The notes below the pieces were generated by a model, which made no database searches, had not been told where the DNA came from, and worked only from the letters and a program-made list of their open reading frames with translations. DNA of 42,725 bases from Myxococcaceae bacterium (GTDB taxonomy: Bacteria; Myxococcota; Myxococcia; Myxococcales; Myxococcaceae). The stretch's first letter is position 1. The number at the start of each line of letters is the position of its first letter. Location: assembly GCA_020247085.1 (NCBI GenBank), contig JADCJJ010000038.1, positions 1 to 42,725 of the forward strand, in the 5' to 3' direction. The translations under genes and the position numbers were made by a program. Below, piece after piece: positions 2,957-21,893 of the stretch.

Positions 2957-4705
2957 ATGCTACGCAAAGACGCGCCCGTGGCCCTCGAAGCTGGCACCAG
3001 AGTCGGTCGCTACACCATCAGCCGCCTGCTGGCGCAGGGCGGCATGGCCGAGGTGTACCGCGCCGAGCAGGAGCTCACGCAGGGCATCAGCCGGCCGGTC
3101 GCGGTCAAGGTGATTCGCCCCGAGTACTCGGAGTCGGCCGACTTCCGCGAGATGTTCCTCGACGAGGCGCGCACCGCCTGCACGCTGAGCCACCCGAACA
3201 TCGCGCAGATCTACGACGTCGGTGAGAGCGACGACGGGCTGCTCTACATGGCCATGGAGCTCGTCGCCGGCGAGACGCTCGCCACCATCAACCGCACCCT
3301 GCGCGACCAGCACGAGCGCTTCTCGAACGAGGCCCTGTTCGCCATCGGCATCTGGACGGCCAGCGCCCTCGAGCCGGTGCACGCGCTGAAGACCGAGGGC
3401 GGCGCGACGGGCCTGGTGCACCGCGACATCTCACCCCACAACCTGCTGCTGTCGGCGACGGGGAGCCTCAAGCTCATCGACTTCGGCATCGCCAAGGCCG
3501 CCACCAACCGCAACCTCACCATGCCCGGCGTCACGAAGGGCAAGGCCGGCTACTTCTCGCCGGAGCAGGCGATGGGGAAGCGGCTCGACGGGCGCAGCGA
3601 CCTCTTCTCGCTCGGCGTGACGCTCTACAAGCTGGCCTCGGGCAGCACGCCGTTCGACGACCACAAGGCGATTGGCGAGCGCCACGCCGCCCTGGTGCGC
3701 GGCCAGTGGAAGGACCTCGACGAGGTGTACCCGGGCATGCCCGGGCCCTTCTACGAGGTGGTGCGCCGCGCGCTCATGCTCAAGCCCGAGGAGCGCTACC
3801 AGACGGCGCGCGCGATGCGCGAGGCGCTCGAGGCGGCGGCCTTCGACTCGGGCCTGCGGGTCGGCCAGTCGAGCCTGCTGGGCTACGTCGACGACGACGG
3901 CGAGGTGACGGCCTCGGGCGGTACCCGCAGCTCGGCCTTCCCCGCCATCACCGCGCCGCCCACCGACACCGTGGCCAGGCCGCTCGTCACCCGGCCGCCC
4001 CCGGCGGCGCCGTCGGCGACGGCCCTCGAGCCGCTGGGGCCGGCGAAGGGCCCGCAGACCGAGCGCGTTCCGACGGCGAAGCCCGCCCCTTCCTCGCGCC
4101 GGGCGATGCTGGGGCTGGCCTTCGGCGCCGCCCTCGCCATCGGTGTCTTCGCGACGCTGCTCTTCGTCTCCGGGCCGACGCCGCCCGCGCCCCCGACGCC
4201 CGTCCCCGCGGGCCCCGCTCCAGAGGCGCCCGGCGCCGTGGCCCCGCCCGTGGTGTCACCGGCCCCGCCCCCACCCCACACGCTGGCCGATGTCCCCACG
4301 CCCACGCTGGCCGAGCCACCTGGCCTCGACCTGACGGCGCCACCCGTCCCCGGCGCGCCGGCCCGCCCGCCGTCGGTCCGCCCGAAGGCGCTGGCGGTGA
4401 AGTCACCTCCACCGGAGGTGAGAGCGCCGCCAGCGCCGCCCGCCGACGACGCCATCCCCGAGGGCATCGGCACCATTCGCATCTCGGTGCCAGGAGACTC
4501 GGGCGCAAAGGTCGTCGTGCGCAGCGCCGCGAAGAGCTACGTGCAGGACCAGCCCTTCAACGAGAAGGTGCCGTCGGGGCGCTACACGGTGACGGTGCGG
4601 CTCGCCAACGGCGACCAGTCGACCGTCTGGCGCGGCGTCGTGCGGCCAGACCAGCAGAAGAAGCTCAGCTACGACGTCGCGCAGGGCCGCTGGAACGAAC
4701 TGTGA
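2957..4705 (+). CDS. Serine/threonine protein kinase with Pro-rich linker, TM segment and PEGA-like C-terminus
   Basis: Gly-rich loop LLAQGGMAEVY, AVKVI, HRDISPHNLLLS, DFGIAKA; TM AMLGLAFGAALAIGVFATLLFV; C-terminal GTIRISVPGDSGAKVVV... Confidence 0.93.
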   Translation: MLRKDAPVALEAGTRVGRYTISRLLAQGGMAEVYRAEQELTQGISRPVAVKVIRPEYSESADFREMFLDEARTACTLSHPNIAQIYDVGESDDGLLYMAMELVAGETLATINRTLRDQHERFSNEALFAIGIWTASALEPVHALKTEGGATGLVHRDISPHNLLLSATGSLKLIDFGIAKAATNRNLTMPGVTKGKAGYFSPEQAMGKRLDGRSDLFSLGVTLYKLASGSTPFDDHKAIGERHAALVRGQWKDLDEVYPGMPGPFYEVVRRALMLKPEERYQTARAMREALEAAAFDSGLRVGQSSLLGYVDDDGEVTASGGTRSSAFPAITAPPTDTVARPLVTRPPPAAPSATALEPLGPAKGPQTERVPTAKPAPSSRRAMLGLAFGAALAIGVFATLLFVSGPTPPAPPTPVPAGPAPEAPGAVAPPVVSPAPPPPHTLADVPTPTLAEPPGLDLTAPPVPGAPARPPSVRPKALAVKSPPPEVRAPPAPPADDAIPEGIGTIRISVPGDSGAKVVVRSAAKSYVQDQPFNEKVPSGRYTVTVRLANGDQSTVWRGVVRPDQQKKLSYDVAQGRWNEL

Positions 4706-4709
4706 GGCG

Positions 4710-5504
4710 TCACCGCGGCGCGGGTGTCAGCGCGTAGCCGACGGCGGCGCCTCCGACGACGACCACGCCGGCGATGGCCCACACCCACGGCGACTGGTAC
4801 CAGCGCCGCTCCTCGACCACCACCAACTGGAACGGCGAGTCGGGCCCGCCGGCCCGGGCGACGGTGGCCTGCGCAGCGTCGAGCGCCTCGACGAAGTAGT
4901 AGGCGGTGAAGCTGGGCTCTCCGGTGGGCGACGGCAGCGCCGCCCGGCACGCGCCGGCCTCGCAGACGGCCTCGGTCGAGGTGAAGGGCCCCGCCGAGCG
5001 CGCCGACGAGCGCACCAGCACGCGCGTGACGGCGCCCTCGGGGTCTGACACCGACACCCGCACCAGCGACGCGGCATCACCGGCCTCGCGGTCCTTCACC
5101 TCGAGCCGCGCGCGCGCGAGCCACGCCTTCTTCGACCGGGCGAGGAACTCGACCTGCTTCTGCGGCGTGCCCGGCGGGAGCGACAGCTTCGGGTCGAGCT
5201 CGAGCGCCTCGACGGCCCGCTGCTGGGCGGTGACCTCGTCGCCCAGCACCAGGTGAATGAAGCCGAGCTCGAAGAGCGCCGCCGAGCGCTCGGTGAAGGG
5301 CCGCTCCGGGGTGGACAGGTACCGCTGGTACTCGACGACGGCCTCTTCGTAGCGGAGCTGCTCGGCCAGCTTGCGCGCGTCGAGCAGGCTCTGCGGCGTC
5401 CCCGCGGCGGCGGCGCCCAGCACCGAGCCGCCGGGGTCTGGCAGGACGAACAGGCGCGGCGCGTCGGGAGAGCCGGCCAGCACGAGCGCGAGCAGGAGCG
5501 TCAC
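4710..5504 (-). CDS. TPR-containing exported/membrane protein
   Basis: Hydrophobic N-terminus MTLLLALVLAGS; TPR-like ARKLAEQLRYEEAVVEYQRYLS; TM WVWAIAGVVVVGGAAVGYAL near the C-terminus. Confidence 0.75.
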   Translation of the reverse strand: MTLLLALVLAGSPDAPRLFVLPDPGGSVLGAAAAGTPQSLLDARKLAEQLRYEEAVVEYQRYLSTPERPFTERSAALFELGFIHLVLGDEVTAQQRAVEALELDPKLSLPPGTPQKQVEFLARSKKAWLARARLEVKDREAGDAASLVRVSVSDPEGAVTRVLVRSSARSAGPFTSTEAVCEAGACRAALPSPTGEPSFTAYYFVEALDAAQATVARAGGPDSPFQLVVVEERRWYQSPWVWAIAGVVVVGGAAVGYALTPAPR

Positions 5505-5571
5505 GCCGCGCTTGTCCTACGGACGGCCGGCGTTGGAAAGGGGCGTCGCGCGGTGGCCTCGCGCCTCGCCC

Positions 5572-7371
5572 TCACCGCGTGAGCGTCACGTCGAAGGTCT
5601 GCTGCAGCAGGCTGGCGCGGTGGCGGCTGGCGCTCTGGCGGTTCGCGGCGACGGTGACGAACACCTCGCCCACCCCATCGAGCGGCGGCAGGGTGGCGCG
5701 CAGCCCGGCCGCGACGACGACGTGCAGCGTCCGGCCGCTCGGGTCGGTCACCCAGACGCGGTAGTCGGTGGCGCCGGCCGAGGCCGTCCACCCGAGCTCG
5801 AGCGGGGCCCGCGCCGGGTGCGTCGCCGGCGGCGCGGTGACTGAGAAGTCCCCCGGCAGCGGCACCTCGAAGGCCCGCGCCGGCCGGTCCGGCACCGCCA
5901 CCTCGACGCGCGCGACGCCCCCCGGCGCCAGCTCGAGGGCGCCCGAGTAGCGGCGCTCCCGGGCGTCGAAGGGCAGGGCCACGCCCTCGACGGTGACGAG
6001 GGCGCCGCCGACGGGGGCCACGCCGTCGAGCACCTCGAACCACGCCCCGCCGGCCGTCTGCCCCCGGTAGCGGCTCACCAGGGCCACTCCCTCGAGCCAC
6101 ACGCCGGCGTCGGCGGGCACCGCGTCGACGACGCCGGAGCGGCTCACGTAGGCGCTGACGAGCGAGCCGCCACGCCCGTACGCGAGCGAGTTGGGCGAGA
6201 ACGCGCTCACCGTCACCTCGTGCAGGTCGTCGGCGACCAGCCCCGCCAGGCGCGCCGAGAGCGCCGCCTCGCCCGAAGCAGGCACCGCGACCGGCGGGGG
6301 CCCACCGCGCGGCGGCGTCACCCGCTCGACAGCCACCTGGTACGTGGCCGCGCCCAACGCGCGACTCCACTGCGCCACCACCGCGCTCCCCGACGTCACC
6401 CGCGCGCCCTCGAGAGGCGCGAGCAGCGAGAAGTCGCCGGGCGCCTCGACGGTGAAGACGAGGGGCGCCTGGCCCTTCGGCGCCACGCGCACGACGTTCA
6501 CCCCCGGCGCCGCCACCTGCAGGTCCCCTCCCGCGGCCGCGTAGAAGCCGCTCGCCGCGTCGAAGGGCACGGCGACGCCGTTCACCTCGACGGCGAGGCC
6601 CGGCAGCGGTGCGCGCCCGTCGGTGATGCGCAGCGAGGCGGCGGGCTGGCCGTCGCTGCGCATCACGCTGCCGATGACGCGCACGCCGCCGGTGGGCTCG
6701 ACGTCGCAGGGCAGGTCGGCGCCGACGGCGCTCCCCGTGATGAACTCCTCGCAGACGAAGAAGGCGAGCTCGCTCGTGGCGTCGAGCCGAATGGGCACCG
6801 CGGTGTCCGGTGGGACGACGGCGTGCCGGGCGCCGTCCCAGAGGTTGTAGCCCGGCGCGAAGCCCGCCCAGCGGGGCCCCGGCGCGCCGTCGACGTACGC
6901 CACCCACAGCGGCGCCTCGGCCGGCGCGCCGTTGGAGGGGTCGCCGACGCTGGTGCCGAGCACCCGGTCGACGGGGCGCGCTCCCGCGGGGATGGCGCCG
7001 AGCTGCCCGTCGCCGTCGCCGTCGACGTAGGCCAGGAGCACCCCGAAGGCGGCGCGCGTGACGTCGTCGCCGTCGCGGTACTCGACGAGCACACCAGGCG
7101 GCGGCGCGGAGAAGAAGCCGAAGCCGTAATCGAGGGGGAAGCGACCCTCGTACGCCACCTCTTGCGCGACGATGGCCCGCGGCGCGCTGCGACCGGCCTC
7201 GTCGGGGTACCAGGCGACGGCGAGGCGAATCGGCGCCGTCGGCGGCGCCCCCGGCGTGACGAGCTGCCCCTTCACCGTGAAGAGTGCCTCACCGCGGTAG
7301 CCGGGCCCGACGGCGCCGCCGGGCGTGCAGGCCCAGCCCGCCGCGGCGACGAGGGCCACGACGCCCCTCAC
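5572..7371 (-). CDS. Putative lipoprotein with FnIII/Ig-like beta domains
   Basis: MRGVVALVAAAGWACTPGG lipobox-like start; repeated LELGWTASAGATDYRVWV / AVVAQWSRALGAATYQVAV; ATGA overlap with the caspase gene. Confidence 0.7.
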   Translation of the reverse strand: MRGVVALVAAAGWACTPGGAVGPGYRGEALFTVKGQLVTPGAPPTAPIRLAVAWYPDEAGRSAPRAIVAQEVAYEGRFPLDYGFGFFSAPPPGVLVEYRDGDDVTRAAFGVLLAYVDGDGDGQLGAIPAGARPVDRVLGTSVGDPSNGAPAEAPLWVAYVDGAPGPRWAGFAPGYNLWDGARHAVVPPDTAVPIRLDATSELAFFVCEEFITGSAVGADLPCDVEPTGGVRVIGSVMRSDGQPAASLRITDGRAPLPGLAVEVNGVAVPFDAASGFYAAAGGDLQVAAPGVNVVRVAPKGQAPLVFTVEAPGDFSLLAPLEGARVTSGSAVVAQWSRALGAATYQVAVERVTPPRGGPPPVAVPASGEAALSARLAGLVADDLHEVTVSAFSPNSLAYGRGGSLVSAYVSRSGVVDAVPADAGVWLEGVALVSRYRGQTAGGAWFEVLDGVAPVGGALVTVEGVALPFDARERRYSGALELAPGGVARVEVAVPDRPARAFEVPLPGDFSVTAPPATHPARAPLELGWTASAGATDYRVWVTDPSGRTLHVVVAAGLRATLPPLDGVGEVFVTVAANRQSASRHRASLLQQTFDVTLTR

Positions 7372-8918
7372 AGCCGAACCCCCAGGCCGAGCTCACCGTC
7401 GATGCCGGGCGTCCACAGCGGGCCATCGACGACGGGCAGCGCCCGCAGCACGCCAGCCACCGCCGCGACGGCGAAGAGGGGCCCGACCAACGGCAGCTCG
7501 ACCTGCAGCTGCGGCCCCAGCGCGACGCCGAGCGTCTGCCGCGGGGAGAGCGCGGGGTACGTGCGCCGCAGCTCGTCCTCGCGGTCGCGCACGAAGGCCT
7601 GGTGCAGCCACGACAGCTCGACGACGCCGCCCAGCATCAGCACCGCCGGCCCCAGCCACACCCGCCCGCCGCCCGAGGCCCGCCAGGCGAGCCTCTGCTC
7701 GAACACGCGCAGCCCGTCAGCGGCCAGCTGCGCCGGGCTCCACGCCGCGCCGAGGGCCGCCCACGCTCCACCCAGCGCCAGCCGCCAGGCGACCCCGACG
7801 CCCGCCCGGAGCGGCCCGCCCGCCACCACCGGCGTCGCGCCGACGCCCGAGAGGCGGAGCGCGTGGGGGTGGACCTCGAGCGCCCCGCCCTTGAGCGCCA
7901 CCTCGCCGAAGTCGCGCGTCACGAAGGCGCGGCCGTCGACGCGCGCCACGCCGCCGAAGGGCAGCTCGACCTCCTGCAGGGCCACCGAGAAGCCGCGGGC
8001 CTGCCGCACCAGGTACCGCCCGGGAGGCACCGCCAGCGCCAGCGCCTGCCCGGGCAGCTTGAAGACCTCGAGCACCACGTCGGTCCGGGGCTGGCTCACC
8101 ACCACGAAGCGCCCCTCGAGGGCCTCGGCGAGCACCACCCTGGCGCGGGCGCGCCCGGGCTCGGTCACCGTCACGTCGCGCGCGCCGGCGAGGCCGACGT
8201 CGAACTGCGGGTGCTGGCCCACGCCGAGGCCGTCGGCGACCGTGCGGCGCTCTGCGTACCCGTAGGCCTCCATCAACGTCACGCGGCCGTCGCGGTCGGC
8301 GTCGGCGTCTCCGCGCAGCGCCGCCAGCAGGTGGTGCGTGAAGAGCGAGCCGCCGAGGGCCTCCCACTCTTGCGCGGCCTCGCGCGCGCCGCTCGACGAG
8401 ATGAAGACATCGCCGCTCGGCTCGGCGCGGCCCACGTCGAGCCGGTAGGCCGGCCCCCGCGTCGCGCCCTTGAGGCGCACGCCGGCCTCGCAGGCGTCGA
8501 CGACGACGACGCGCAGGGTGGCCCCCGTCGCCCGGGCCAGCGCCCTGAGCTCGACGAGCGGCAGCACGCTGCCGGCCAGGCGCAGCGCGCCGTCGCGCCC
8601 GTGGGCCGAGGCGAAGACGAAGAGCTGCGCCTCGCGCCCCGCCCCCGCCAGCTCGGCGATGCGCCCCGTCACCTCGGCGAACGCCTCGCGCACGCGGGCG
8701 GCGGTGGGCCGCGTCAACACGAAGGCGCGCCCCGGCTCGACGCCGCCGAGCTCGACGAAGACGTCGCGCACCCGCGCCGCGTCCGCCTCGGCGTGCTGCA
8801 GTAACGCGTCGTCCGCCGCGCCGAAGTTACTGCCGAGGCTCACCACCACGCGCACCGGCGCCTCGGCCCGGGCGGCGGCGGCGGCGAGCAGCACGACGAG
8901 GCAGAGCGCGCGCATCAC
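7368..8918 (-). CDS. Exported caspase-like peptidase (C14 family) with EF-hand loop and beta-rich C-terminal region
   Basis: Signal peptide MMRALCLVVLLAAAAARAEA; catalytic dyad candidates H106 (FASAHGRDG) and C143 (VVVDACEAG); DADRDGRVTLME loop. Confidence 0.85.
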   Translation of the reverse strand: MMRALCLVVLLAAAAARAEAPVRVVVSLGSNFGAADDALLQHAEADAARVRDVFVELGGVEPGRAFVLTRPTAARVREAFAEVTGRIAELAGAGREAQLFVFASAHGRDGALRLAGSVLPLVELRALARATGATLRVVVVDACEAGVRLKGATRGPAYRLDVGRAEPSGDVFISSSGAREAAQEWEALGGSLFTHHLLAALRGDADADRDGRVTLMEAYGYAERRTVADGLGVGQHPQFDVGLAGARDVTVTEPGRARARVVLAEALEGRFVVVSQPRTDVVLEVFKLPGQALALAVPPGRYLVRQARGFSVALQEVELPFGGVARVDGRAFVTRDFGEVALKGGALEVHPHALRLSGVGATPVVAGGPLRAGVGVAWRLALGGAWAALGAAWSPAQLAADGLRVFEQRLAWRASGGGRVWLGPAVLMLGGVVELSWLHQAFVRDREDELRRTYPALSPRQTLGVALGPQLQVELPLVGPLFAVAAVAGVLRALPVVDGPLWTPGIDGELGLGVRL

Positions 8919-9619
8919 CGCTTCCCGAACGAGGCCTCTTCCACGACGCAGCGCTCACACGACGGCCGGCCGCCAACCTCGAGTTGGCGCAGCAGCGGCG
9001 CCACCTCGAAGGGCACCGGAGAAAAGACGGTGACGAACGTCTCGGGGCCAGGCGCGTCGTCAATCACCGCGGAGTCGTCGAGCACCGTCGTCCCCTCGTC
9101 GATGGCCTGCGGCCGTTCGGCCCCGAAGGGCGCCACCGCCGTGACCTTCCCACGAGCGTCGCGGTCGAGCACCAGGGCGAAGCCCGGCTGGTCGACCGAG
9201 ACCGAGAAGCGCAGGGCATCACCCGCCACCAGCGCGTCGCCGGCCGCCAGCGCCCGCACGACGCCGGCGCGCTTGAGGTGGATGACCTGGAAGGGGGCGC
9301 GCGGCCCCTTGACGCGCACGCGCGGCCCGGGGCCGGGCGGCCACGCCACCAGGGCCGTGACGGCGGCGGCGCAGACGGCCACCATCGCCACCACCGGCGC
9401 GCGCCGGGGCCGCGCCGGCAGGGCACCTGCGGCCTCGACCTGGGCGAGGAAGCGGTCGACCGGCCGCGCGCGGACGAAGGCGTCGACCTCGGCGCGCAGG
9501 GCCGCCACCGCCGCGCCGCAGGCCGCGCACCCCTCGACGTGGGCGCGGGCGGTGGGGACGTCTTCTCCAGCCGCGACGCGCTCGAGCTCGAGGCGCGGGG
9601 GGCAGTCGGGGCCTCTCAT
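8915..9619 (-). CDS. Transmembrane anti-sigma factor (ZAS motif) with DUF4384-like C-terminal domain
   Basis: HVEGCAACG (HxxxCxxC); TM APVVAMVAVCAAAVTALVAW; C-terminal GDALRFSVSVDQPGFALVLDRDARGKVTAVAPFG; follows the ECF sigma gene. Confidence 0.72.
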   Translation of the reverse strand: MRGPDCPPRLELERVAAGEDVPTARAHVEGCAACGAAVAALRAEVDAFVRARPVDRFLAQVEAAGALPARPRRAPVVAMVAVCAAAVTALVAWPPGPGPRVRVKGPRAPFQVIHLKRAGVVRALAAGDALVAGDALRFSVSVDQPGFALVLDRDARGKVTAVAPFGAERPQAIDEGTTVLDDSAVIDDAPGPETFVTVFSPVPFEVAPLLRQLEVGGRPSCERCVVEEASFGKR

Positions 9620-9680
9620 GGCGCTCCTCCCCGGGCGCCCCGGGTGCCCGCCTGCGCGGCGACCGCTCCGGCAGCCCACC

Positions 9681-10169
9681 TCACGAAGGCGCTCCCCCGA
9701 GCGCCGCGCGCAGCGTCGCCTCGGCGCTCCTCAGCTTCACGCCCACCGTCTTGCGCGAGTAGCCCGTCTTCGCGGCCACCTCGTCCTGCGTGAGTCCATC
9801 GAGCCAGTGCAGCATCGCCATCTCCCGCGTCGTCTCATCCAGCACCGCCAGCTCGCTGCCCAGACACACCCGGTCCTCCACCGAGCCGGGCGCCGGGCGG
9901 TCGAGCCAGGCCGACAGGCGCCCGAGCAGCCCCACCGGCTCGGCCCGCCGGCGCTGGGCGAGCTGGTCGAAGCACACCCGCGCCGCCACCGCGTAGAGCC
10001 ACGGCAGCAGGGCCTTCACCTCGGCTCCCGGCGGGTACCGCCGAACGCGCACGAAGGTCTCCTGCAGCGCGTCGTTGGCGTCGCTGTCGGTGCCGAGGAG
10101 CGCGCGGCAACGACGGTGCACGAAGGCCCCGTAGCGCGCGTAGAGCTGCCCCAGCGCCTCGTTCGTCAC
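9681..10169 (-). CDS. ECF-type RNA polymerase sigma factor
   Basis: Sigma2-like DANDALQETFVRVRRYPP...LLPWLYAVAARVCFDQLA; sigma4-like MLHWLDGLTQDEVAAKTGYSRKTVGVKLRSAEATLR. Confidence 0.9.
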   Translation of the reverse strand: MTNEALGQLYARYGAFVHRRCRALLGTDSDANDALQETFVRVRRYPPGAEVKALLPWLYAVAARVCFDQLAQRRRAEPVGLLGRLSAWLDRPAPGSVEDRVCLGSELAVLDETTREMAMLHWLDGLTQDEVAAKTGYSRKTVGVKLRSAEATLRAALGGAPS

Positions 10170-10243: not shown

Positions 10244-13009
10244 TCACGGCACCACCTGCACCATCACCGCGGCGCTGACCGCGCCCCGCACCGCGCTGAC
10301 CGAGGCGCTCCCCGGCGAGAGGCCCTTCACCTCGCCCTGCCACGGCCAGGCGTTGCTGACCGCGGCCACGCCCGGCGCGCTCGACAGCCACGTCACGTAG
10401 GGCGTGACGTCGAGCTCAGAGCCGTCCGAGAAGGTGCCCCGCGCCGAGAGCTGCCGTGTCTGCTGCGCCGGCAGCGACCCGGTTACCGGCGAGGCGATGG
10501 TGAGGCTCGCGAGGGTGGCGGCGGTGACGGTGACGGTGGTGGAGCCCTGCACGCCGCCCAGCGTCGCGGTGACGGTGGCCGTGCCGGCTTGAATCGGCTG
10601 CAGCCAGGCATACCCGCTGCTCACCGAGGCGACGCCCGGCGCGCTCGACGTCCACGACACGACACCCGTCAGGTCGCGCGTGGTGTTGTCGCTGTAGACG
10701 CCCGTCGCGCGGAGCGAGGTGTCGAACCCGACCGGCAGGCGGGGCGAGAACGGCGTCACCTGCAGCTGCCGCAGCGTGGCGCTCGTCACCGTCACCACCG
10801 TCGCCGCGGACACCCCCGCGAAGGTCGCGGTGATGGTGGCGCTGCCGGGGCGCAGCGCCGTGAGCAGGCCCTTGTCCTGCGAGCCGTTGCCGACCGTCAC
10901 CACCGCCGGGTCCGACGACGTCCACGAGGCGACGTAGCGCAGGTACTGGGTGGTGAGGTCGCTGTACACGCCCGTCGCGGCGAGCTCGGCGTACGCGCCG
11001 ACGGGGAGCGACGGCCGCGCGGGGCTGACGTCGAGCCGCGCGAGCGTCGCGCTCGTCACGGTGACCTGCACCGCCGCCGGCGGCACGCCGGGCAGCGTCG
11101 CGGTGATGGTGGTGGTGCCGGGCTGACGGCTGTCGAGGTACGCGTAGCCCTGCGACACCAGCACCTCGGCCACCGTCGCGTTCGACGACGCCCACCGCAC
11201 CTGCGCGGTGACGGGCATCGTCGAGCCGTCGGAGGAGGCGGCGGTCGCCTCGAAGCCGAAGGGCACCCCCAGCGGCACCGCCAGCACACCAGGGCTGATG
11301 GAGAGCTGCACCAGCGTGGGCGGCTCGACGCGCACCATCGCCACCGCGGTGCGCCCCTGGAAGACCGCCTGTACGCTGGCGGTGCCCGACGCCTCCCCTC
11401 GCACCAGCCCGCGGCTGCTCACCGAGGCCAGCTGGGGCGCCCGGCTGCTCCACGCCGCCAGGGCGGTGACGTCGCGCACCGTGCCGTCGGACGAGAAGGC
11501 GAGCGCCCGGAGCTGCGTGCTGCGGCCGGCCTCGACGCTGACCTGCCCGGGGGCCACCTCGAGGGCTTGCAGCGTCGCCGCCTGCACGGTGACGTCGGCC
11601 TGGGCGCGCACGCCGGCCAGCTCGGCCCGAACGCGCGTTGCGCCGCCGCCGACGCCCCGCACCTGCCCCCTGGCGCCGGCGACGTTCGACACCGCGGCGA
11701 TGGAGGGGTCCTCGCTGGTCCACAGGGCCTGCTCGCTGACGTCGGCGAAGGAGCCATCGGCGAACGACGCGCGCGCGCGCACCGAGACGACGGCGCTGCC
11801 AGCCAGGGCGAGGGTGCGCGGCGTCAGCTCGAGGGCCTGGAGCGCCGCCGCGGTGACGACGACGGGCGCGGTGGCCGACACGCCGCCGAAGCGGGCGGTG
11901 ATGGTGGCCGGGCCTGCCGACAGGCCCGAGACCACCCCGCGCGCGCCCGACGAGGCCACGCTGGCGACGGCCGGCGCCGACGACGAGAAGAGGGCCTGCG
12001 AGGTGACGTCGGCGGTCGAGCCATCGCTGAAGGTCGCGACCAGCCGGAGCGCGCCCTGGCCGCGCACGCTCAGCGTCAGCGAGGCGGGCATGAAGGTGAG
12101 CTGCCGCGCCGTCGCGTCGGTGGCCGTCAGCGTGGCCCGGCCCTCGAGGCCCTGGAGCGTCGCCGTGACCGTGGCCGCGCCCTGCGACTTCGCCACCGCC
12201 AGCCCCTGCGCGTCGACGGCGAAGCTGGGCGCGCTCGAGGCCCACGCCGCCGCGCGGGTGACGTCCACCTCGCTCCCGTCGGCGGCCCTGGCCCGGGCCG
12301 TGAGCTGGATGGCGCCGGCGACGCCGACGGCGGCCTGGCCGGGCGTCACCGCGAGCGAGAGGAAGCGCCCCGAGCGCACGGCGACGGGGGCATCGCCGGT
12401 GACGGCGCCGACGGTGGCCCGCACCGTCACCTCGCCGGGCTCGAGCGCGAGGAAGCGGCCCGGCGAGAGCGCCGCGAGCACCGCCGGGCCGCCTGCCTGC
12501 TGTTCGACGGCCCACTGCGCGGTGGCGGTGACGTCGAGGCGGCTGTCGTCGGTGAGCGTCGCCAACGCCGTGGCGTCGACGACGGCCCCCGGCAGCGTCG
12601 ACCCCTCGGACACCCCCACCTCGATGGTCCGCACCTGCGCCGGCAGCACCGTCACCGACGCCTTCGCCTCGAGCTGGTTCGCCCGCGCCGTCACCAGCAC
12701 CACGCCGGGCGCGACCGCCCGGAGCTGCCCCTGGGTCGAGGTGACGAGGCCCTCAGGCTCGAGCGACAGCGCCGCGGTGGCGGTGACGTCGACGGCGGCG
12801 CCGTCGGGCTGCACGGCCAGCACCTTCAGCGCCGCCGTCGCGCCGAGCGGCAGCACCAGGGCCGCGGGGCTGACCTCGAGCGTCGCCTGCGCGGCGCCGC
12901 CCCCCGCGCCCCCGTCACCGCCCGGCGGGAGCTCGGCGCTCGGCGTCAGACAGGCGCTCGCCCACAGCGCCACCACCACCCCGGTCATCGTCGTCGCCCT
13001 TCGTCCCAT
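10244..13009 (-). CDS. Lipoprotein with about 10 tandem bacterial Ig-like (BIG2-type) domains
   Basis: MTGVVVALWASACLTPS lipobox; about ten 85-90 aa repeats of the form L.V.P......G....L.A...SDGS..DVT....W.SS.P..A.V...G...G...G.A.VTA...G......VTVT.A.L. Confidence 0.85.
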   Translation of the reverse strand: MGRRATTMTGVVVALWASACLTPSAELPPGGDGGAGGGAAQATLEVSPAALVLPLGATAALKVLAVQPDGAAVDVTATAALSLEPEGLVTSTQGQLRAVAPGVVLVTARANQLEAKASVTVLPAQVRTIEVGVSEGSTLPGAVVDATALATLTDDSRLDVTATAQWAVEQQAGGPAVLAALSPGRFLALEPGEVTVRATVGAVTGDAPVAVRSGRFLSLAVTPGQAAVGVAGAIQLTARARAADGSEVDVTRAAAWASSAPSFAVDAQGLAVAKSQGAATVTATLQGLEGRATLTATDATARQLTFMPASLTLSVRGQGALRLVATFSDGSTADVTSQALFSSSAPAVASVASSGARGVVSGLSAGPATITARFGGVSATAPVVVTAAALQALELTPRTLALAGSAVVSVRARASFADGSFADVSEQALWTSEDPSIAAVSNVAGARGQVRGVGGGATRVRAELAGVRAQADVTVQAATLQALEVAPGQVSVEAGRSTQLRALAFSSDGTVRDVTALAAWSSRAPQLASVSSRGLVRGEASGTASVQAVFQGRTAVAMVRVEPPTLVQLSISPGVLAVPLGVPFGFEATAASSDGSTMPVTAQVRWASSNATVAEVLVSQGYAYLDSRQPGTTTITATLPGVPPAAVQVTVTSATLARLDVSPARPSLPVGAYAELAATGVYSDLTTQYLRYVASWTSSDPAVVTVGNGSQDKGLLTALRPGSATITATFAGVSAATVVTVTSATLRQLQVTPFSPRLPVGFDTSLRATGVYSDNTTRDLTGVVSWTSSAPGVASVSSGYAWLQPIQAGTATVTATLGGVQGSTTVTVTAATLASLTIASPVTGSLPAQQTRQLSARGTFSDGSELDVTPYVTWLSSAPGVAAVSNAWPWQGEVKGLSPGSASVSAVRGAVSAAVMVQVVP

Positions 13010-13190
13010 GGCCGTCCTCGTCGTCTGTGTCGGGGGCGCCGGCCGCGCCCGTGTCCCCTTCAGACCGGGCGAGGGCCTCTTTCTGGGAAGTCGCCCACAG
13101 GCCCGGCACGAGCCCCCAGCGATTCCGAAGAGATGGCCTGCGCGAGGCCAGCGGCGACTTCGCGCGCGCGGGCTGGCAACGTGGAGGCCC

Positions 13191-14774: not shown

Positions 14775-14840
14775 CCCAGCACCACCCGTCTGTCCGTGGC
14801 GGATGGGTGGCACGGGGGCTACGGTCCACCTCTTCTCCCG

Positions 14841-16349
14841 ATGGGCCCGACCGGCACCAGCGTCACCGCGATTCGCGACCCGCTCATCGGGGTGCGGGTG
14901 CTCGGGTACGAAATCGTCCGGGTCATCGGCCTGGGCGGCATGGGGCAGGTGTACGAGGCCGTCGAGCGCACCATCGGGCGTCGCGCCGCCGTCAAGGTGC
15001 TGCGCCCCGACGTCGCCGAGCGCAAGGACTACATCGCGCGCCTCAAGGGTGAGGCGCGCACGGCCAACGCCGTGCGGCACCGCGGCATCATCGACGTCTT
15101 CGGCTTTGCCGAGTTGCCCGATGGGCGGCAGGCCATCGTCATGGAGTACCTCGACGGCGTTCCGCTCGACGTCGAGCTGCGACGGTACGCCGACGCTGGC
15201 CGCCTCATGCCGGCGCTCGAGGTCATCAACCTCATCGACGAGCTGACGTCGGTGCTGAGCGCCGCGCACACCGCCGGCGTCGTCCACCGCGACCTCAAGC
15301 CCACCAACATCTTCCTGTCGAAGGCCCCCGACGGCACGAAGACCCTCAAGGTGCTCGACTTCGGCATCGCGAAGTTCGACGCGCATGCATCGCTCGACAC
15401 GGCCGCCAACACGGTGCTCGGCACCCCGCACTACATCGCGCCGGAGCAGGCGGCCGGGAGGCCGGCGGCGCCGTCGATGGACCTGTACGCGCTCGGCGTC
15501 ATCGCCTTCGAGCTCTTCACCGGACGCCTGCCCTTCCAGTACCGGGAGGCGATGGCGTTGCTGCTGGCGCACCAGCAAGAGGCGCCGCTGCGGCCCTCGA
15601 GCATCAACCAGAGTCTACCCGCCGTCGTCGACGACTTCGTGCTCACCCTGCTGGCCAAGCGGCCCGAGGCGCGCTTCACGTCGGCCGCCGAGGCGCGCAG
15701 CCGCCTCGCGTTGCTTCGCCGAACCCTGGGCGACACCACGGCGCGGGACACCGACCCACAGCTCGAGGCGCATGAGGAGACGCTCCGTGTCCGACGCGCG
15801 CGGCGCCGGCCGTGGACGTGGGCCGCCTTCGGCGTCGGGGTCGGCGCAGCCCTGGTGCTCGCGGTCGCCGGAGCGGTGCGCGTGGCGACGCGCCCGGAGC
15901 CCCCCCTCATCACCCCGCCGCCACCCGAGCTCGCCCCGACGAGGTCCCTCGAGCCCGTGGCCATCCCCGAGGCGCCCCCACCCGTCGAAGCGGCGCCGCC
16001 CGCTCCCGACGCGCCGCCGGCCCCGGAGCCCACGGCGGTGCCCGGTGAGCCGCCGACGCCAGCGCTGCCCCTGCCCGCGCCGACGGCGCTCGCCCGCCCG
16101 CCACAGGGCCAGGTGCAGCGGGAGCGCGTCGCGTCCGCCGAGGAGCTCCGCAAGGCGCTCCAGCGCCTCGAGCGCTTCAAGCTGCGCCTCCAGAAGGCCG
16201 AAGCCGAGGCCGATGGGCTCGAGTACGACGTCATCGACAGCACGCGTCGGCAGCTGCTCGACGAGCGCAACCCGATGACGCCCGCGGCCGTCGAGAAGGC
16301 GCTGGCCAACGTCGACGCGGTGGTCACGGCGCTCGAGGCGAACCGCTGA
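14841..16349 (+). CDS. Serine/threonine protein kinase with TM segment
   Basis: VIGLGGMGQVYEAVE, AAVKVL, HRDLKPTNIFLS, DFGIAKFD; TM TWAAFGVGVGAALVLAVAGAV. Confidence 0.93.
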   Translation: MGPTGTSVTAIRDPLIGVRVLGYEIVRVIGLGGMGQVYEAVERTIGRRAAVKVLRPDVAERKDYIARLKGEARTANAVRHRGIIDVFGFAELPDGRQAIVMEYLDGVPLDVELRRYADAGRLMPALEVINLIDELTSVLSAAHTAGVVHRDLKPTNIFLSKAPDGTKTLKVLDFGIAKFDAHASLDTAANTVLGTPHYIAPEQAAGRPAAPSMDLYALGVIAFELFTGRLPFQYREAMALLLAHQQEAPLRPSSINQSLPAVVDDFVLTLLAKRPEARFTSAAEARSRLALLRRTLGDTTARDTDPQLEAHEETLRVRRARRRPWTWAAFGVGVGAALVLAVAGAVRVATRPEPPLITPPPPELAPTRSLEPVAIPEAPPPVEAAPPAPDAPPAPEPTAVPGEPPTPALPLPAPTALARPPQGQVQRERVASAEELRKALQRLERFKLRLQKAEAEADGLEYDVIDSTRRQLLDERNPMTPAAVEKALANVDAVVTALEANR

Positions 16350-17793
16350 CGCCCCCCGCCGGCGCGGCGCGAGGCAGCGACAGCGAGAACACGGTGCGCC
16401 CCGGCCGCGAGCTGACGGCGAGGGCGCCGCCGTTGGCCTCGACGAGCTTTCGAGCGAGCGGCAGGCCCAGGCCCGTGCCCTTCTCCCGCGTGGTGAAGAA
16501 CGGCTCGAAGATTCGGGCCTGAACGTCGGGTGGAATGCCAGGGCCCTCGTCACGCACCTCGACGACGGCGACGCCCCCTTCGACGCGGCCCGAGAGCGAC
16601 ACCGTCTGCCCACGGCTCGAGGCCTGCACCGCGTTCTTCACCAGGTTCACCAGCGCGCTCGTCACCAGCGACTCGTCGGCGTCGACCGTCACGTCGGGCA
16701 CCTCGACGGCGAGCGCGACCCCGCGCCCCTCGGCCTCACCCTGCAGGTGGGCGACGGCCCCGGCGACGAAGCGGCGCAGCTCGACGGGCGCGCGCGACAC
16801 CTTCTGCTCACGCGCGAAGGCGAGGAAGTCGTCGACGATGCGGCCGAGGTAGTCGAGCTCACGGCGAATGCGCCCCAGGTGGGCCCGCGCCTCGGCCAGG
16901 TCCGGGGTCGGGGCCCGCAGCTCCTCGTCGAGCAGCCCCGAGAAGAGCTCGATGCCGCCCAGCGGGTTCTTCACCTCGTGGGCCACGCCGCCCAGCATCA
17001 GCTTGAGCTGCCGGTCGCGGCTCTCGAGGCCGGCGCGCATGGCCTCGAGCTCGTGGGCGAGCGCCAGCACCTCGCGCGCTGAGGCCGTCGAGGCGACCGG
17101 CGTCGCCAGGTCACCGCGGCCAATCTGCTGCGCGCTCCGCACCAGCACCTCGAGCGGGCGCGACACCGCCCGCGCCGACAGCACCGCCGCCGCGGCGAGC
17201 AGCACCAGCGTCACCGCCAGCAGGCCGAGGAAGGCGCGCCGCAGGTCGTCGAGCGGGCCGAAGAAGGCGGCGTTGCCCTCGACGGCCACCACCGCCACCA
17301 CCCGCCCGTCCTGCAGCAACGGGGCGTACCCTGCCTTGTAGAAGGTGCCATCCTGGCCACGGAAGAGCACCTGCGAGGCGGTGCGCGCGCCGCCGAAGAC
17401 GAGCTCGAGCTCGAGGGCGTCGCGCAGCAGGTCGGGCACCTCGGCGCCGGGTGGCAGGCCGCCCCCCACGTCGAGGCGCGCCCGGCGCTCCGCGTCGAAC
17501 ACCAGCACCCGCCGCAGCCCCGCGGTGCGGCGCACGGCCTCGAGGGTCTTCGTCAGCGCGCGGAAGGTGCGGCTGCCCTCGTCGCGCGCGTCTTCGGCCG
17601 TGAGCGCCAGCACCCGCTCGGCCGAGAGCTGCGAGGCCACCGAGGCCGCCACGTCGGCGAGCGCCTGGCCGAGCTGCTGCTCGAGCACGTTGCGGCTGGC
17701 GCTGAAGAGCAGGAAGCCGCCCAGCGACAGCACCAGCAGCGTCGGAGCCAGGAAGGCGAGCAGCAGGCGCGCGCGCAGCGTCACGCGCGGCAT
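16324..17793 (-). CDS. Membrane sensor histidine kinase (HAMP-HisKA-HATPase)
   Basis: Two N-terminal TM regions; VAHEVKNPLGGIELF (H-box); LVNLVKNAVQA (N-box); DEGPGIP and TGLGLPLARKLVEANGG (G-boxes). Confidence 0.93.
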   Translation of the reverse strand: MPRVTLRARLLLAFLAPTLLVLSLGGFLLFSASRNVLEQQLGQALADVAASVASQLSAERVLALTAEDARDEGSRTFRALTKTLEAVRRTAGLRRVLVFDAERRARLDVGGGLPPGAEVPDLLRDALELELVFGGARTASQVLFRGQDGTFYKAGYAPLLQDGRVVAVVAVEGNAAFFGPLDDLRRAFLGLLAVTLVLLAAAAVLSARAVSRPLEVLVRSAQQIGRGDLATPVASTASAREVLALAHELEAMRAGLESRDRQLKLMLGGVAHEVKNPLGGIELFSGLLDEELRAPTPDLAEARAHLGRIRRELDYLGRIVDDFLAFAREQKVSRAPVELRRFVAGAVAHLQGEAEGRGVALAVEVPDVTVDADESLVTSALVNLVKNAVQASSRGQTVSLSGRVEGGVAVVEVRDEGPGIPPDVQARIFEPFFTTREKGTGLGLPLARKLVEANGGALAVSSRPGRTVFSLSLPRAAPAGGVSGSPRAP

Positions 17794-20252: not shown

Positions 20253-21893
20253 TCACTGCGCGGGGAACTCGACGCGCACGTTCGACTCGCGCCCCTCCAC
20301 GACGGTCACCTTCCGCACCGCCGCGGTCCCGCCGGGCGCCCGGAAGCTGACCGTTCGCACGCCCGCCGCCACGGGGAGCCTCGCCACGGGCGTCGTGGCG
20401 ACGTGCTTGCCGTCGACGAAGACGTCGGCCCACGGCACCGCGTCGGCGGTGAGGTACCCGATGGCGGCGGCCTTCTGGTGAGGCGGAGGCGAAAGGCTCG
20501 CAGCGCGCACCCGCACGGCGCCGGCGCCTCCAACGGCGCCCCTCGCCGCCGCGACGGGCCCACCACCGCCGGCGCCACCTTCGGCCGCCGCGACGGGCCC
20601 ACCACCGCCGGCGCCACCTTCGGCCGCTGCGACGGGCCCACCACCGCCGGCGCCACCTTCGGCCGCTGCGACGGGCCCACCATCGCCGGCGGCACCTCTC
20701 CCAAGCGTGACGGCCGCGCTGCCGACGGCTCTCTCAGCCGACTCCGGCGCCCCGGCGACGCGGACCCTCTCGCTGGGGAGCGGGCCTCGCCGGGCCTCCT
20801 CCCTCGCGCGCCGCCCCCAGACGCCCGCGGCGAGCGAGACGACGATGACCGCCACCAGCGACGCCCCGGCGACGACCACCCACCGCTCCAGCCGAGGGCG
20901 TGGCGCGGACACCGAGGCGCCGCCCGCGAAGCGCCGCGTCACCCGAAGCTCCTGCAGGGCCGCGCCGGACGGGTCGAGCTGCGCCTCGTCTCGAGTCGGC
21001 ACCCTCACGCGCCGAAGGAACTCGGCCAGCTCCGGGGCGCTCGAGACCGGCCCGTCGAGGAGCGCGTCGCGAAAGCTGGCGGCGTCGGAGAACCGCTCAC
21101 CCGGCGTGCGAGCCATCGCCCGGTGCAGCGCCTGCTCGAGGCCCGGCGTGACGTCGGGCCGCAGCTCGCGCAGCGGCCTGGCCCGCCCTTCGAGAACGGC
21201 CCTGAGCGTCTCCTCCTGGGTCTCCCCGCGAAACGGGTTCACCCCGGCGATGACCTCGTAGAGCGTGACCGCGGCCGCGTAGAGGTCGGCCCGCCCATCG
21301 AGGCGCGAGGCGTGCGACAGCTGCTCCGGCGCGATGTACGCGGCCTTGCCCTTGATGACGCCAGAGCGGGTCCCCGCCTCCCCGACCCGGGCGATGCCGA
21401 AGTCGGTCAGCTGCACCGCGCCGGACGTGGACAAGAGGATGTTCGAGGGCGTGACGTCGCGGTGCACCAGCTTGAGCGGTCGCCCCTTCGAGTCGCAGAG
21501 CGCGTGCGCGTAGCCCAGGGCCTCGCAGATGCCGAGGCCGATGGCGCGCACGACGGGCAGCGGAACGCGCACGCCCTGGTCCGAAAGGGAGCGCAGGAGC
21601 TGCGCGAGGCTCACCCCGTCGACGAGCTGCATCGCGAGGAAGGGGCGCCCCTCGGCCTCGCCGACGTCGAAGACCTCGACGATGTTGGGGTGGTGCAGCC
21701 GCGCCGACAGCCGGGCCTCGTCGTAGAAGCGACTCACGGCGTCAGGCGATGTGGCGAGCTCGGCGAGCAGCAGCTTGAGCGCGACGAACTTCTCGAAGTC
21801 GCCGGCGCCCGTCTTCCTCGCGACGTACACCTCACCCATGCCGCCAGCCGCCAGCCGCCGGAGCACTTCGTAGCTGGCCGACACCCCACCCAT
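20253..21893 (-). CDS. Serine/threonine protein kinase with PEGA-type C-terminal domain
   Basis: LAAGGMGEVYVARK, ALKLL, HRDVTPSNILLS, DFGIARV; TM VVVAGASLVAVIVVSLAAGVW; C-terminal GYLTADAVPWADVFVDGKHVATTPVARLPVAAGVRTVSF. Confidence 0.93.
   Translation of the reverse strand: MGGVSASYEVLRRLAAGGMGEVYVARKTGAGDFEKFVALKLLLAELATSPDAVSRFYDEARLSARLHHPNIVEVFDVGEAEGRPFLAMQLVDGVSLAQLLRSLSDQGVRVPLPVVRAIGLGICEALGYAHALCDSKGRPLKLVHRDVTPSNILLSTSGAVQLTDFGIARVGEAGTRSGVIKGKAAYIAPEQLSHASRLDGRADLYAAAVTLYEVIAGVNPFRGETQEETLRAVLEGRARPLRELRPDVTPGLEQALHRAMARTPGERFSDAASFRDALLDGPVSSAPELAEFLRRVRVPTRDEAQLDPSGAALQELRVTRRFAGGASVSAPRPRLERWVVVAGASLVAVIVVSLAAGVWGRRAREEARRGPLPSERVRVAGAPESAERAVGSAAVTLGRGAAGDGGPVAAAEGGAGGGGPVAAAEGGAGGGGPVAAAEGGAGGGGPVAAARGAVGGAGAVRVRAASLSPPPHQKAAAIGYLTADAVPWADVFVDGKHVATTPVARLPVAAGVRTVSFRAPGGTAAVRKVTVVEGRESNVRVEFPAQ
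20545..20696. repeat. 39-bp in-frame tandem repeat, about 4 copies (GGPVAAAEGGAGG)
   Basis: GACGGG anchors at 20553, 20592, 20631 and 20670, spaced exactly 39 bp, inside the kinase gene. Confidence 0.9.

Follow-up and report, generated by a model that had tools for sequence, protein, structure and literature searches.

The 42,725-nucleotide stretch analysed here (the window; contig JADCJJ010000038.1 of a Myxococcaceae bacterium) carries on its minus strand, at 13090–5572, an operon composed of a lipoprotein gene (BIG) followed by genes for an extracytoplasmic function (ECF) sigma factor (SIG), a ZAS/DUF4384 anti-sigma factor (ANTI), a caspase-like protease (CASP) and a putative surface lipoprotein (LIP). 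A near-invariant [K/R]-G dipeptide, a feature new to this analysis, recurs in the linker of ANTI, in the loop following the catalytic cysteine of CASP and in the linker preceding the predicted CASP barrel, suggesting that the caspase may act on its own anti-sigma factor. The elements of the operon are listed below.

13062–13090, minus strand: ECF-type promoter motif CTTCCCA-N16-CGGTCT, 5' of BIG; proposed sigma-controlled operon promoter
10244–13009, minus strand: BIG, lipoprotein with lipobox WASAC, containing roughly 8 or more Ig-like repeats of the Big_2 type; opens the operon in the window's genus
9681–10169, minus strand: SIG, ECF sigma factor of 162 amino acids, GTG start
8915–9619, minus strand: ANTI, with ZAS domain, transmembrane (TM) helix 75–92, predicted linker 93–110 and predicted periplasmic beta-sandwich/DUF4384 from residue 111
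9305–9310, minus strand: codons of ANTI K104-G105, in the linker that follows the TM helix; proposed site-1 cleavage site
7368–8915, minus strand: CASP, with signal peptide, caspase-like domain (residues ~20–236), beta domain (~237–335), predicted linker 341–348 and predicted 8-stranded outer-membrane (OM) beta-barrel (351–514); alternative start GTG at 8918
8601–8603, minus strand: catalytic His105 of CASP, present in 101 of 101 triads
8490–8498, minus strand: D140-A-C142 of CASP, the acidic S1-pocket Asp and the catalytic Cys, each present in 101 of 101 triads
8466–8471, minus strand: CASP K149-G150 (site K1), 7 residues past Cys142; proposed activating self-cleavage
7887–7892, minus strand: CASP K342-G343 (site K2), between protease part and barrel; proposed release site
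5572–7371, minus strand: LIP, putative surface lipoprotein, beta-rich and exported

A shared dipeptide in anti-sigma factor and caspase

An original prediction made from the letters of this region had described five minus-strand open reading frames, all of which are present with the order and ends it gave, and its assignment of the sigma factor, the anti-sigma factor and the caspase was borne out. SIG is recognised by Sigma70_r2 (E 9e-10; 38.6 bits, cut-off 24) and TIGR02937 (57 bits, cut-off 42.9), with Sigma70_r4_2 scoring 23.8, just under its cut-off of 25.7; it comprises regions sigma2 and sigma4 only, as expected of an ECF factor, and its start, GTGACGAACGAGGC, is kept in orthologs. ANTI combines the ZAS signature HxxxCxxC (HVEGCAAC) with one TM helix and a DUF4384 match of 28 bits against a cut-off of 27. 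The H, C and C ligands are each found in 75 of 99 relatives, the zinc ligands having been lost in part of the family, and gene order together with co-evolution suggests that ANTI may bind and inhibit its cognate sigma factor. An AlphaFold2 model of ANTI, with a predicted local distance difference test (pLDDT) score of 90, displays helices at 9–65, the TM helix, a weakly modelled linker at 93–110 and the beta-sandwich; a fold search with ANTI returned weak beta-sandwich matches alone, none below E 0.001.

For CASP, the AlphaFold2 model (69 sequences, pLDDT 91.9) shows a signal helix, the caspase domain, the beta domain and eight long strands at 351–514. Foldseek matched the protease part, of caspase/haemoglobinase fold, to caspase-8, caspase-3, legumain and metacaspase (probability 1.00) and the C-terminal part to OmpA, NspA (TMt 0.75) and OmpX (0.67), with probability 1.00 for OmpA and NspA. 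The eight predicted strands are antiparallel and many orthologs end in GWRF or GVRF, a C-terminal beta-signal, consistent with an OM barrel in the last 165 residues, which the original prediction had overlooked. At the level of sequence the protein is less easily recognised: it lacks a match to PF00656, unlike six paralogs in its own genome that score above the cut-off; its 45.1 bits against NCBIfam NF047832 (caspase, EACC1-associated) fall under the cut-off of 140, and it is not assigned to that family; and a PDB sequence search yielded no usable relative. The catalytic dyad lies in the motifs SAHG and DACEAG, and D45 is, like H105, D140 and C142, found in 101 of 101 triads. Acidic S1 residues of metacaspase TbMCA2 and of MALT1 favour Lys or Arg at P1 (PMC4357240); D140 matches MALT1 Asp462 and TbMCA2 Asp211 by position (PMC4357240), and D45 and D140 were equated with the S1 residues of these enzymes by motif and topology. 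Since both acidic pocket residues are invariant, CASP is predicted to cleave after Lys/Arg. A conserved CASP segment, DADxxxDGxVxxxEaY (8258–8303, minus strand), resembles an EF-hand calcium loop and matches calcium-binding proteins weakly; the enzyme may, like metacaspases, be under calcium control.

The Lys-Gly pattern, which in ANTI lies within PRVRVKGPRAPF, was spotted by eye in 12 caspases and about 38 anti-sigma factors and then tested on 101 non-redundant triads (sigma, anti-sigma, caspase), the first ones included. At the ANTI site (n=99) the basic position is K in 86, R in 9 and M in 4 sequences, followed by G in 97 and S in 2, so that [K/R]-G occurs in 95/99; in the whole protein this Gly shows the highest conservation, above the ZAS Cys (75/99), despite the variable length of the surrounding linker. 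Site K1 has K in 97, R in 3 and L in 1, with G always next ([K/R]G in 100/101), and site K2 reads KG in 81, RG in 18 and KS in 1, with one sequence unaligned ([K/R]G in 99/101), against a background rate for [K/R]G of 1.4% per dipeptide. The three consensus sequences are closely alike (ANTI V-R-L-K↓G-G, K1 T-R-L-K↓G-G, K2 V-A-L-K↓G-G, the arrow marking the bond proposed to be cut), R-x-K↓G being common to the ANTI site and K1. Arg at P3 occurs in 70/99 ANTI and 78/99 K1 sequences, and its presence in the two is associated (65 + 16 concordant, 13 + 5 discordant). For association with ANTI-P3, the K1-P3 column comes 5th among the 495 columns of the caspase, and at one locus (L042) TERG is found at both the ANTI site and K1. 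Each of the three sites lies in a linker modelled with low confidence within an otherwise confident structure, the ANTI site in 93–110, K2 in 341–348, the sole segment of CASP under pLDDT 50, and K1 in 141–160, the next weakest. Covariation of the ANTI P1 residue with caspase columns S176 and G107 is suggestive, with few clades dominating, and does not form part of the main evidence.

Gene neighbourhood, operon limits and promoter

Neighbourhoods were assembled with our own gene caller and jackhmmer profiles, and six-frame hidden Markov model (HMM) scans covered 104 non-redundant loci having 1300 bp or more of upstream sequence. Sigma factor, anti-sigma factor and caspase stand in that order in nearly all loci inspected, and the condition under which the original prediction would have fallen, most caspase homologs lacking the sigma/anti-sigma pair, did not hold: both partners lie directly upstream in 92/104. 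Of the exceptions, 12 in all, two (L132 and L165) match the anti-sigma profile, L089 adjoins a divergent sigma/anti-sigma pair, and four rearranged loci (L139, L140, L148 and L168) read caspase, exported protein, sigma, anti-sigma, the last of these being too diverged for the profile and keeping K/R-G after its TM helix. Distance matrices correlate at r = 0.92 for sigma versus caspase protease and at 0.82 for sigma versus anti-sigma. The genome from which the window derives (7.36 Mb, 641 contigs) contains seven members of the caspase family; of the six paralogs, five belong to complete triads and one (L040) is without a visible anti-sigma factor, with little sequence before the contig end. Triads number at least six in this genome. 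At least one member is found in 92/96 genomes of the bacterial family and 161/195 of the phylum, many having several, and homologous triads occur on contigs labelled Fibrobacterota, Spirochaetota, Eisenbacteria and Latescibacterota. One myxobacterial-type triad (L179) sits on a contig labelled as a Klebsiella pneumoniae metagenome-assembled genome, probably a binning error.

The limits of the operon required revision. The original prediction had begun it at the sigma factor, overlooking BIG, which has a Big_2 match of E 5e-45 in 8 stretches, starts at ATG 13009 or 12988, and lies upstream of sigma at the same place in four orthologous loci of the genus (L043–L046). At the other end it had included one gene too many:

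4710–5504, minus strand: TPR/TM protein with a weak TPR_2 match (E 0.02), separated from LIP by a 67-bp gap; judged to lie outside the system

No orthologous locus that was inspected has this gene, and it was ruled out as a member. The supposed ATGA overlaps were also misread, as the ANTI/CASP junction is GTGATG (start at GTG 8918 or ATG 8915) and the CASP/LIP junction GTGA. The description of LIP as a beta-repeat lipoprotein holds as far as export is concerned, whereas its lipobox in the window is poor (GWAC), those of orthologs being better. LIP stands 3' of CASP in 38/104 loci, and the genes at this position differ, belonging to the LIP family, to a second lipoprotein family or to others. 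The second family (CGNWSNxDLxFxNALPxR..., ~310 amino acids) takes the place of LIP after the caspase at L038, L072, L073, L075, L141, L155, L156 and further loci. LIP was considered as a third substrate, having TVKGQ near its N-terminus, and rejected, as by eye the residue preceding Gly is K, R, E, Q, G or others among relatives.

The promoter motif CTTCCCA-N16-CGGTCT has a single exact match in the window's own genome, where the reversed control has 0, and occurs at the corresponding place in four same-genus orthologs (G090, G091, G092 and G095). In the window, a search immediately 5' of sigma found no motif, which sits 5' of BIG instead. A related motif, [GC]TTCCCA-N16-18-GTC, is present 21–86 bp 5' of sigma in 19/93 triads against 0.11 expected in shuffles, and the motif appears again between CASP and LIP at six loci (L047, L051, L053, L055, L058 and L062). 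The stricter GTTCCCATTTY-N11-15-GTC occurs 0–3 times per genome in ten genomes of 9–14 Mb, mostly at the triad locus, and its reversed pattern 0 times. Within the window alone, and with two mismatches allowed, a match would be expected by chance; the argument is built on genome-wide uniqueness and positional conservation, which together suggest that the sigma factor is dedicated to its own operon. In one other genome (G043) an exact copy of the motif lies ~59 bp in front of an unlinked gene for a putative lipoprotein (L221:750–1469, minus strand), a possible second target of the sigma factor.

Elsewhere in the window are three Ser/Thr protein kinases (2957–4705 and 14796–16349 on the plus strand, 20253–21893 on the minus strand), one of them with a weak C-terminal PEGA match, and a histidine kinase (16324–17793, minus strand).

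A candidate signalling circuit and competing accounts

The account we consider probable, with due reserve, is that of a self-contained, self-amplifying envelope-signalling circuit, in which the caspase would free itself, cut its own anti-sigma factor as site-1 protease and switch on its own operon. CASP would be exported and held in the OM by its C-terminal 8-stranded barrel, with the protease domain in the periplasm. Barrels of eight strands have both termini facing the periplasm, and the protease part could therefore meet the periplasmic linker of ANTI. Upon a signal, CASP would cut itself after K149, becoming activated, and after K342, leaving the barrel, the latter cleavage resolving the problem of distance between outer and inner membrane. 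The freed protease would diffuse to the inner membrane and cut ANTI after K104, between TM helix and periplasmic domain, whereupon a general site-2 (M50) protease, genes for which are present in the same genome, would complete its breakdown. The released sigma factor would read essentially one promoter, that of its own operon (in relatives, that of the LIP gene too), producing more caspase and surface lipoproteins. Action of one protease on all three K/R-G sites would be the simplest explanation of their likeness, because the same type of bond is found in activation loop, barrel tether and ANTI linker and because the enzyme and the sigma/anti-sigma pair are co-inherited. In linking the sigma/anti-sigma pair to an envelope caspase, the original prediction was sound; the direction it assumed, from sigma to caspase, may be half of the story, as the correspondence between the Lys-Gly sites points to control of sigma by the caspase as well. 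With somewhat less than even confidence this can be taken further, to a CASP that is OM sensor, transmitter and site-1 protease in one (self-release at K342-G343, ANTI cut at K104-G105), with several such circuits per myxobacterial genome and a caspase fold employed in transcriptional signalling, not cell death.

The strongest competitor, though we regard it as unlikely, makes the caspase purely an output, with ANTI controlled by an ordinary site-1 protease or a DUF4384 ligand and the sigma-made caspase acting on envelope proteins in a stress response or cell death. The caspase does lie within the proposed sigma-driven operon, a cell-death role has been proposed for such genes in PMC3501461, and DUF4384, a domain present in further proteins that have neither sigma nor caspase, may bind ligands. 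What this account leaves unexplained is the presence of the caspase's proposed self-cleavage consensus in the ANTI linker and its loss in a clade that lacks the caspase, a natural control: three conserved sigma/DUF4384 anti-sigma pairs of that clade with no caspase beside them (L268, 6890–8112; L270, 6702–7924; L271, 7646–8877) have a shortened linker without K/R-G. An output should also be as exchangeable as the downstream lipoproteins, yet the caspase is as constant as sigma.

A structural or folding role for the K/R-G dipeptides, as signals of a domain start and not as cleavage sites, appears improbable. It would suit the greater conservation of Gly than of the basic residue at the ANTI site and K2, as well as the M-G found in one clade, but all three sites are in linkers predicted to be disordered, that of ANTI being variable in length. 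Caspase-free DUF4384 domains mostly lack the dipeptide. DUF4384 proteins from 146 genomes of the phylum, scored over a 40-residue span following the best TM segment, served as the main control, because the ZAS anti-sigma factors of the genus (2/11 with [K/R]G, one resembling the triad anti-sigma) offer too few independent cases. Where sigma and caspase do not adjoin, [K/R]G is absent in 9/10 of these proteins (some without a clear TM segment) and at position 34 in the tenth, whereas triads not used earlier have it in 14/14. In the window's own genome Pfam DUF4384 matches the ANTI of the window alone and is unusable for counting the family. Five anti-sigma factors whose operons are divergent or rearranged, including four too distant for the profile to recognise, retain K/R-G after the TM helix.

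There is little to recommend a negative-feedback enzyme that clears sigma-induced envelope proteins or the freed anti-sigma domain and has no part in switching on; it fits a sigma-co-transcribed operon and K/R-G sites in the anti-sigma factor, but a cut just past the TM helix, the position of site-1 cleavage in RseA and RsiW, would normally activate sigma in pathways of regulated intramembrane proteolysis (RIP). Least credible is the role first suggested for the locus, regulated lysis or kin discrimination, for which the caspase and the predatory, social host group were the only grounds and to which no finding points, the operon having no toxin, immunity or lysis gene and occurring in several parallel copies per genome and in non-social phyla.

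Several points weigh against the proposed circuit. Cleavage is something we infer, the barrel could be a passive anchor, and arrival of the released protease at the inner membrane by diffusion is assumed. The dipeptide is retained without an adjoining caspase at L267 (KG) and L269 (RG), and at five caspase loci (L150, L164, L166, L169 and L170) no sigma/anti-sigma pair was recognised. M-G replaces K/R-G in four anti-sigma factors of one clade, most of whose caspases keep a basic K1. The covariation ranks are controlled for phylogeny by sequence weighting alone (Neff 56) and depend in part on single clades, and the alignment of K2 was possibly helped by the aligner. The M-G clade comprises L081, L082, L084 and L132, and the L132 caspase has L-G at K1; the caspase may there have come to prefer a hydrophobic residue.

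Relation to known systems

Bacterial metacaspase-like proteins for the most part await a function, and in myxobacteria they have been read as a hint of programmed cell death. Operons joining sigma-70 and metacaspase genes were noted in 2012 in M. xanthus, Anaeromyxobacter, Haliangium, Sorangium, Ralstonia and Fibrobacter (Asplund-Samuelsson et al., PMC3501461), 4/5 M. xanthus metacaspases being so placed, and a role in cell death was suggested. The view that this is not a described system thus needs qualifying: the gene association, the same as here, was already known, whereas the main text of that paper does not use the term anti-sigma and gives no cleavage motif, barrel, promoter or mechanism. 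The open-access literature searched describes no caspase that has an anti-sigma factor as its substrate. The evidence presented here suggests another job for these proteins, in which cleavage of one defined Lys-Gly bond in the anti-sigma factor would transduce an envelope signal. Should this hold, it would be a new class of site-1 protease in ECF signalling, and a new form of its control by RIP; it would explain why 4/5 M. xanthus metacaspases adjoin sigma genes, and would describe a circuit that is compact, self-amplifying and built on one promoter, of which genomes hold several copies.

In the RseA-SigE pathway of E. coli, a membrane anti-sigma factor with a periplasmic domain is cut near the membrane by the site-1 protease DegS and then by the site-2 M50 protease RseP. 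The proposed circuit is similar in its membrane anti-sigma factor, periplasmic domain and putative succession of site-1 and M50 site-2 cuts, and differs in that the site-1 enzyme would be an operon-encoded, OM-tethered caspase, with no PDZ serine protease. With FecR/FecI it would share an OM barrel as possible sensor, an envelope anti-sigma factor, an ECF sigma factor and a small regulon, but there is no TonB-dependent receptor and the barrel protein is itself the protease. Like metacaspases and the paracaspase MALT1 (C14B, PMC4357240), CASP has a His/Cys dyad, acidic S1 residues at alpha1 and L4, and likely Lys/Arg specificity and self-processing; unlike them, it is secreted, carries a beta domain and a predicted OM barrel, and is weakly detectable by sequence. 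A further comparison is the ECF54 group, whose sigma factors have CHAT/protease genes in their context and for which control by a caspase-type protease has been proposed without an anti-sigma factor (PMC8999054); caspase-type protease and ECF sigma factor are common to both, and in the present operon the anti-sigma factor would be the middle partner between them.

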